A program made the translations under genes and the position numbers. From assembly GCA_021794575.1 (NCBI GenBank), contig JAJYQO010000024.1, positions 37,904 to 101,903 of the forward strand: a DNA stretch of 64,000 nucleotides, written 5' to 3'. Source of the stretch: Pseudomonadota bacterium. GTDB lineage: Bacteria; Pseudomonadota; Gammaproteobacteria; Xanthomonadales; Rhodanobacteraceae. Under the pieces are notes generated by a model. The model was not told the DNA's origin. It worked only from the letters and a program-made list of their open reading frames with translations, and did no database searches. Shown here one piece after another: positions 28,769 to 30,339 of this stretch (position 1 is its first letter; every line of letters starts with the position of its first letter).

Positions 28769-29173
28769 TCAGATCCGGGACTCGGGACTCGGGACTCGGG
28801 ACTCGGATTCGAGCTTCCGGCACAGGGCTTGATGCAGGCGCGCAAGCATCTGCCCGACTCGATCGCAAAGCTCCGATGCGGCAGCACTATCGGCTTCGGC
28901 AGCCAAACCAAAATCCCGCGACAAGAGCAACTGAGTCTGCACTTCAGCGGTGGAGCCCAGCGCCATCGAGACGAAGCGCGCGTAGTCTTTCAGCGAACTG
29001 CGGGCATTGCCCTCCGCAATATTGGAGGGTATGGAAACCGCCGCGCGCTGCAACTGCGCCGTGAGGCCGTAGCGTTCTTCGCGCGGGGAAGCGGCGGTCA
29101 GCTCATAGACCGTGCGGGCCAGCTGCATCGCCAGCTGCCAGACCTCGAGCTCGCGGAAATGCGATGCGGTCAT
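28769..29173 (-). CDS. Four-helix-bundle protein (23S rRNA IVS / S23 family)
   Basis: 134 aa [90 protein letters not shown]...; F.ELEVWQ.A..L...Y, YGLT.Q..RAA.SIP.NIAEG and GS..E..TQL are family hallmarks; preceded by GGGAGGAGGGCG (SD). Confidence 0.9.
28776..28806 (+). repeat. Heptanucleotide array (gggactc)x4, left arm of inverted pair
   Basis: c-(gggactc)4-gg read directly; exact reverse complement of 29184-29214. Confidence 0.97.
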
Positions 29174-30339
29174 CGCCCTCCTCCCGAGTCCCGAGTCCCG
29201 AGTCCCGAGTCCCGCATCATGTCGATGAACCGATCGAACAAGCCCGAGACATCGTGCGGCCCCGGCGAGGCCTCGGGATGGCCCTGGAAACCGAAGGCCG
29301 GTGCGTCGATCAGCTCGATGCCCTGATTGGAGCCGTCGAACAGCGAGCGGTGGGTGACGCGCACGTCGGCAGGCAGCGTTGCCTCGTCGACGGCGAAGCC
29401 GTGGTTCTGGCTGGTGATCAGCACGCGGCCGCTGGCCAGTTCCTGCACCGGATGGTTGGCGCCGTGATGGCCGAACTTCATCTTCAGCGTCCTTCCGCCC
29501 GCCGCCAGGCCCAGCAACTGGTGACCGAGGCAGATGCCGAACAGCGGCACGCGGCGCGCCAGGAATTCGCGAATGGCCGCGATGGCGTAATCGCAGGGTT
29601 CCGGGTCGCCGGGGCCGTTGGACAGGAACACGCCGTCGGGCTTCAGCGCCAGCACCTCGGCCGCGGACGTCTGCGCCGGCACCACGGTCAACGCGCAGCC
29701 GCGGTCGGCCAGCAGGCGCAGAATGTTGCGCTTGACGCCGAAATCGTAGGCGATGACACGGAATCGCGATGCCGGACGGGCAACAGTACCGCGGTCGAGA
29801 TCGAGACTGCCGTCCTCCCAGCGATAGGCCGTGCGCGTGGTGACGACACGCGCCAGATCCATGCCGGCCAGCCCCGGAAAGCCGCGCGCGGCGGCCAGCG
29901 CGCGCTCCGCCGCATCGGGCTGCACCGCCTCGGGACCGGCCATGATGCAGCCGGCTTGCGCGCCGTTGTCGCGCAGGATGCGCGTCAGCTTGCGCGTATC
30001 CAGGCCGGCGATGCCGACGACGCCATGCCGCGCGAGGCAGGCCGGCAGACTCTCCTGACTGCGCCAATTGCTGGGCAGCCGCGGCACGTCACGTACGATC
30101 AGCCCGGCCGCGTGCACGGCAGCGGACTCGGCATCGGCTGCGTTGCAACCGGTATTGCCGATGTGCGGATAGGTCAGGGTGACGATCTGCCGGGCGTAGG
30201 ACGGATCGCTGAGTATCTCCTGGTAGCCGGTGATGGCGGTGTTGAACACCACCTCGCCCACGGTCTGGCCGGGCGCGCCAACGCCGATGCCCTGGAAGAT
30301 CGTGCCGTCTTCGAGGGCCAGCAGGGCGGGAACGTGCAT
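29170..30339 (-). CDS. carA: Carbamoyl-phosphate synthase small (glutaminase) subunit
   Basis: [64 protein letters not shown]; class I GATase [15 protein letters not shown]-terminus encoded by the repeat array. Confidence 0.97.
29184..29214 (-). repeat. Heptanucleotide array (gagtccc)x4, right arm of inverted pair
   Basis: cc-(gagtccc)4-g read directly; exact reverse complement of 28776-28806. Confidence 0.97.

Follow-up and report, generated by a model that had tools for sequence, protein, structure and literature searches.

A four-helix-bundle gene between inverted heptamer arrays at the carA-carB junction: a probable insertion element of the 23S rRNA intervening-sequence kind

In the window analyzed here (the whole stretch of DNA under study, 64 kb in length), the genes for the two subunits of carbamoyl-phosphate synthase, carA and carB, are separated by a small gene encoding a four-helix-bundle protein (FHB; PF05635, also known as the S23 family), which is bracketed by inverted arrays of a heptamer. 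This raises the question whether gene and arrays together form a genetic element and, if so, whether the arrays are its ends or the target into which it was inserted. A preliminary description of the locus had suggested an element resembling the intervening sequences (IVSs) of 23S rRNA, possibly mobile and residing in a protein-coding operon, and had left both roles of the arrays open. All genes at the locus are located on the minus strand in the order carA, FHB, carB:

29170..30372, minus strand: carA, carbamoyl-phosphate synthase small subunit, host gene; C-terminus extended by the 5' arm
29184..29218, minus strand: 5' arm, (GGGACTC)x4 plus flanking matches, G-rich on the FHB sense strand (TRF, inverted-repeat search)
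28769..29173, minus strand: FHB gene (PF05635 / TIGR02436, S23/IVP family), 134 aa (profile matches)
28772..28806, minus strand: 3' arm, (GAGTCCC)x4 on the sense strand, within the last FHB codons (TRF, inverted-repeat search)
25539..28766, minus strand: carB, large subunit, host gene immediately following the element

The 31-nt exact inverted repeat (28776-28806 / 29184-29214, built on (GGGACTC)x4 / (GAGTCCC)x4) and the S23-family gene between carA and carB, both reported in the preliminary description, were confirmed by alignment, by TRF, which detected both arrays at 100% match, and by the profile scores of the 134-aa ORF (PF05635, 123 bits at a cut-off of 33.8; TIGR02436, 112 bits at a cut-off of 24). 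If one mismatch is allowed, the arms extend to 35 nt (28772-28806 / 29184-29218, 97%) with 377 nt between them. No stronger inverted repeat was detected in the 64-kb window when arms separated by up to 1.5 kb were allowed; the other ones, of 22 nt or more, show 72-91% complementarity. In the predicted RNA fold of the element the arms are paired (z=-6.2). The notion that the ORF is enclosed in the loop of such a stem applies to most of the gene, which is located between the arms, but not to all of it, since the 3' arm encodes the FHB C-terminus. The stop codon of carA overlaps the FHB start codon (ATGA), the start of carB follows the FHB stop codon at a distance of 2 nt, and the last codons of carA are provided by the 5' arm, which lengthens the carA C-terminus; in relatives with an empty site carA ends with ...ALMEAR*.

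The FHB gene is the only annotatable ORF of the element; no catalytic domain was recognized in its product using Pfam, and no transposase is encoded. The only solved structure that matches the protein by sequence is 2GSC (Xcc0516), described in the title of Lin 2006 (cited in PMC10053308) as an assembly of five four-helix bundles. Carriage by phages and membership in a defence system were considered and rejected, as neither a phage collection nor PADLOC gave a match. The draft genome to which the window belongs (G000) contains a single FHB gene. Several of its contigs (C35, C58, C91, C90, C62 and C27) end at or near heptamer arrays of up to ~18 units, and FHB copies could thus be missing from the assembly.

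A comparable element is known from Coxiella burnetii, whose 23S rRNA IVS of ~430 nt contains an S23p ORF, complementary ends that form a 28-bp stem, and tandem heptamers (GACAGAT) that immediately precede the ORF (Warrier 2016, PMC4990558). It shares with the carAB element the protein family, a similar size, complementary ends (with a stem of roughly 28-31 bp) and the tandem heptamers. The carAB element differs in that it is hosted by a protein operon and not by a 23S rRNA helix, that both of its arms consist entirely of heptamer arrays, and that its stem is known from a predicted fold; a sample of 60 FHB loci yielded no rRNA match. What rRNA intervening sequences do and where they come from has been described as unclear (PMC4990558). 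Heptameric G-rich repeats (GGGNATC / GGGGA(C/T)T), on the other hand, were described for Xanthomonas and Nostoc, with 70-75 convergent pairs per Xanthomonas genome, a preference for four units and a location close to stop codons; no general association with mobile elements was reported, and FHB/S23 genes were not mentioned (Rehm 2015, PMC4692102). The locus in the window resembles these repeats in its tandem heptamers, their convergent pairing and the number of about four units, whereas FHB arms at other loci often lack G-tracts. The heptamer arrays and the Coxiella IVS heptamers have thus been known separately, while their link to FHB genes is apparently new: in the literature searched, which included few subscription journals and no bioRxiv preprints, we found no paper that connects FHB/S23 genes to inverted arrays of heptamers.

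FHB genes are distributed across the bacteria and are also present in one archaeal group, the unit measuring ~450 bases, and PF05635 is carried by 115 of 300 genomes of the order. We gathered PF05635 genes from relatives and across phyla and aligned the 300 nt preceding the domain to the reverse-complemented 300 nt that follow it. The resulting 163 distinct loci were retrieved by similarity to Xanthomonadales proteins, the samples share ancestry, and many of the source genomes are drafts or MAGs broken at arrays. Inverted flanking arms scoring above the 99th percentile of mismatched-pair controls were present at 96 of the 163 loci, compared with 1 of 372 control windows displaced along these loci. 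Flanking by arrays, which the preliminary description had proposed to look for at other TIGR02436/PF05635 genes, is thus found well beyond carAB, and the arrays are far from randomly placed with respect to FHB genes. In a subset of 71 loci from many phyla (one of them archaeal), retrieved by a peptide motif, 59 lay above the 95th percentile of their own null and 47 above the 99th, and period 7 was found in 47 of the 59.

For the 140 loci with measurable arms (a threshold set after the scores were seen), the best period was 7, 14 or 21 in 117 cases, and the self-match at lag 7 was 0.73 in the arms versus 0.25 inside the gene. The 5' arm contained more G than C at 136 of these loci, and arm length had its mode at 28-34 nt. 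The heptamer itself varies from locus to locus (GGGACTC, GGGAATC, TTAGTCA, GGTGACA, CAGGAGT etc.), and the two arms of one locus agree. Within the clades of FHB genes at carAB and accBC, pairs of arms from the same locus scored higher than shuffled cross-locus pairs (permutation p<=5e-5, a test that ignores relatedness); because related loci share heptamers, the own arm was strictly the best partner at only 2 of 15 and 5 of 27 loci. At one locus (L041, G040 C117) the FHB gene is flanked by longer repeats, GGGGAACG, together with a small hairpin, unlike the usual heptamers; the stem of this hairpin varies in sequence yet remains self-complementary.

We therefore consider it probable that the FHB gene and its two inverted heptamer arms represent a discrete insertion element of ~450 bp, of the 23S rRNA IVS kind, which was inserted at the stop-start junction of carA and carB. 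The preliminary suggestion of a possibly mobile unit that resembles an IVS and resides in a protein-coding operon is supported in this respect; its mobility we infer from empty sites, patchy occupancy and the association between FHB genes and arrays, not from direct observation of movement.

Genomes of the same genus show different states at carA-carB. The junction is plain in five of them, which provides the empty sites that the preliminary description had proposed to search for, and these junctions carry no heptamers. An FHB gene with heptamer arms (GGGACTC in G000 and in its relative G008, GGGACCC in G006) is present in three, and a GxxExxY gene in another three. The three states are intermixed on the carB tree, so that the site is patchily occupied, in some relatives by a different element, and FHB has not been retained here by vertical descent in all relatives. 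Between G000 and G008 the element is 96% identical, compared with 85% for carA and 90.5% for carB, and the tract of high identity includes ~75-100 nt of carA and carB. Since the similar stretch takes in part of the flanks, recombination could have carried the element between these genomes. Exchange between relatives at conserved operon junctions, by homologous recombination or transformation, might even be the main route of spread, with true insertion being rare, as the many copies at the same junction would also suggest. We regard this as an unlikely but serious possibility, against which stand the new junctions and short duplications seen on plasmids (see below) and the phylogeny of the FHB genes: 16 of the 21 FHB genes at carA-carB in our sample form one clade, which spans five family codes, but the remaining ones fall into at least four other places in the FHB tree. 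The accB-accC copies, in turn, all form one clade (26 in the tree). Long residence at a site thus seems to be common, as judged from the single clades comprising 16 of 21 carAB and all accBC copies. In G000 a lone GAGTCCC x4 array (L068, C49 ~41907-41934) is located before accC, where relatives from the same family carry FHB.

The carA-carB junctions of relatives with an empty site are too diverged for target duplications to be read, and close empty sites were obtained for FHB genes on cyanobacterial plasmids. Comparison of the filled site in Trichormus/Scytonema with the empty one in Nostoc linckia/Microchaete (flanks ~98% identical) revealed a duplication of GTAAT, and comparison of Nostoc ATCC 53789 plasmid pNsp_a (filled) with pNsp_c and C057 a duplication of TTCTA; the upstream stop codon lies wholly or partly within each of the two. 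Plasmid pNsp_c carries a different FHB gene one junction further on, with an imperfect duplication (TAATG/TTATG), and for N. edaphicum versus Calothrix at the nrd genes a 4-bp duplication (TTAG) was found, with the FHB gene oriented opposite to the operon. Duplications of ~5 bp are thus present in the best plasmid pairs, although clean ones are confined to two pairs, with the third being 4 bp long and the fourth imperfect. In the Calothrix NIES-22 pair there was no duplication and ~11 nt of the target were replaced, and the Picosynechococcus and Pseudanabaena pairs showed no clear duplication. No heptamers were found at the plasmid empty sites. Overall, insertions are often located next to stop codons: the arm edge is at most 15 nt away from an upstream stop codon at 75 of 127 loci, compared with 16 of 381 random positions, a difference to which tight operon spacing contributes.

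Arrays without FHB genes are also found. In G014, whose FHB arms consist of GGGGAAC, a 91-nt non-coding interior is present in 40 dispersed, near-full copies (85-99%), and each of the 14 copies examined is bordered by arrays on either side, with flanks that differ among copies. The site filled in Trichormus is occupied in Brasilonema by a unit that has arms of the same type but lacks FHB, and in Nostoc C052 by a decayed FHB copy. Being short, dispersed and non-coding with inverted ends, the 40 units in G014 resemble MITEs and REPINs, which are mobilized in trans, but their ends are tandem heptamers of variable sequence, and no transposase has been identified. Likewise, the FHB element has terminal inverted repeats as IS elements and MITEs do, yet encodes no transposase. 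The number of GGGANNN arrays per genome is associated with the presence of FHB (median 118 versus 3, Mann-Whitney p=3.7e-5) in 44 hand-picked genomes, uncorrected for relatedness, excluding G038 with its decayed FHB gene, and including draft assemblies that break at arrays. Some genomes are nevertheless rich in GGGANNN arrays although they lack FHB, among them G036, a single-contig relative with many GGGACTC and GGGAATC arrays. In G000, GGGACTC arrays occur at ~20 places, several of them as inverted pairs without FHB; one such pair (L059, C64 ~2066-2250) appears, by eye only, to be located inside a putative IcmF-like mutase/GTPase gene. We also considered a family of mini-elements in G000 with a REP-like interior, GTCATCCCGGACGGCGCGCAGCGCCGAGCCGGGAT, but this sequence is matched at 52 places, of which only some adjoin arrays (e.g. 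C47:31673-31795 and C72:84583-84706); the family is therefore composite and provides no clean evidence.

These observations bear on the role of the arrays. That they are pre-existing, slippage-prone repeats into which FHB genes insert preferentially is favored by the frequent occurrence of FHB-less arrays and by the general abundance of heptamers in bacterial genomes (PMC4692102, PMC4679880). However, the empty sites at carA-carB and on plasmids are devoid of heptamers, which largely refutes arrays as targets; in addition, the two arms match in inverted orientation, and the FHB-less arrays of G014 bound a repeated interior in the manner of a mini-element. We thus consider a role as target very improbable, and of the two roles initially envisaged, that as ends of the element is retained.

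As an insertion element, the unit would be integrated by a staggered-cut DNA event. The FHB protein, which is pentameric in the solved family member, might bind the heptamer arrays of the element that encodes it and so hold the two ends together, and the cutting enzyme might be supplied in trans by the host or by another mobile element. In the mRNA the arms might pair into a stem of ~30 bp that would be open to cleavage by RNase III, like the stems of rRNA IVSs, and such cleavage would reduce the harm done to the host operon. The similarity of the arms within a locus may be maintained by foldback copying or by selection for pairing.

Alternatively, the arms might be maintained as an RNA stem that benefits the FHB gene or the host operon through processing, mRNA stability or G-quadruplex regulation, with FHB being a vertically inherited operon gene. 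The strong predicted fold, the location in a translationally coupled operon and the single clades formed by the accBC copies and by most carAB copies are all consistent with this explanation, which we nevertheless judge to be improbable in view of the empty sites with short duplications, the mini-elements dispersed in the genome of G014 and the FHB insertion opposite to the nrd genes. G-quadruplexes in particular can be ruled out as a shared function, because 47 of the 140 arms contain no GGG tract and only 43 contain four.

Another conceivable mechanism is retro-mobility, in which FHB would act together with a reverse transcriptase provided in trans and the element would move via an RNA copy. 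FHB is distantly related in sequence to Avd of diversity-generating retroelements (DGRs), a structural similarity between Avd (4DWL) and 2GSC has been noted (PMC10053308), and the elements are often located in transcribed operons. Yet the FHB protein of the window scores only 21.8 bits with NF033474 (cut-off 80), and no RVT_1 match was found in G000 or, among hand-picked FHB-bearing genomes, in 12 of 15, including single-contig ones and G014 with its 40 copies. A reverse transcriptase in trans is therefore disfavored, and we consider this mechanism quite improbable.

The GxxExxY genes (PF13366, PDDEXK_3) that take the place of FHB at carA-carB in G007, G009 and G004 (L081, L082 and L080) encode an unrelated protein. 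Inverted arms of their own, which differ from those of FHB, are readable in G007 and G009. The arm scores of 41 GxxExxY loci have a median of 40, against a null mean of 19.8, and 17 of these loci exceed the 99th percentile of mismatched pairs; the arms have a period of 9-10 and no bias of G over C. Both kinds of unit thus have inverted short-period arrays and share the carA-carB site among sister genomes, and with a period of 7 for FHB and of 9-10 for GxxExxY the type of array goes with the protein family. A tentative generalization, which we would not yet call probable, is that FHB and GxxExxY units are the first members of a class of transposase-less mobile elements, whose ends would be recognized by repeat period and inverted layout and not by a fixed sequence, with the small protein setting the period (7 or 9-10). 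Many of the dispersed arrays in Xanthomonas and Nostoc might then be mini-elements or their remnants, and the 23S rRNA IVSs members that landed in rRNA.

The insertion-element explanation unites, in one testable picture, the widespread but uncharacterized PF05635/S23 genes and the heptamer arrays of Xanthomonas and Nostoc, which have so far lacked an explanation, and ends that vary freely in sequence while keeping their period would be an unusual definition of a mobile element. PF05635 also turns up in surveys of CRISPR and DGR neighborhoods (PMC10053308, PMC10910872). Its presence in the CRISPR surveys may be partly explained by copies that sit inserted in cas operons, as observed at three loci (L326, L327 and L328; cas10/cmr3, cas6/cas4).
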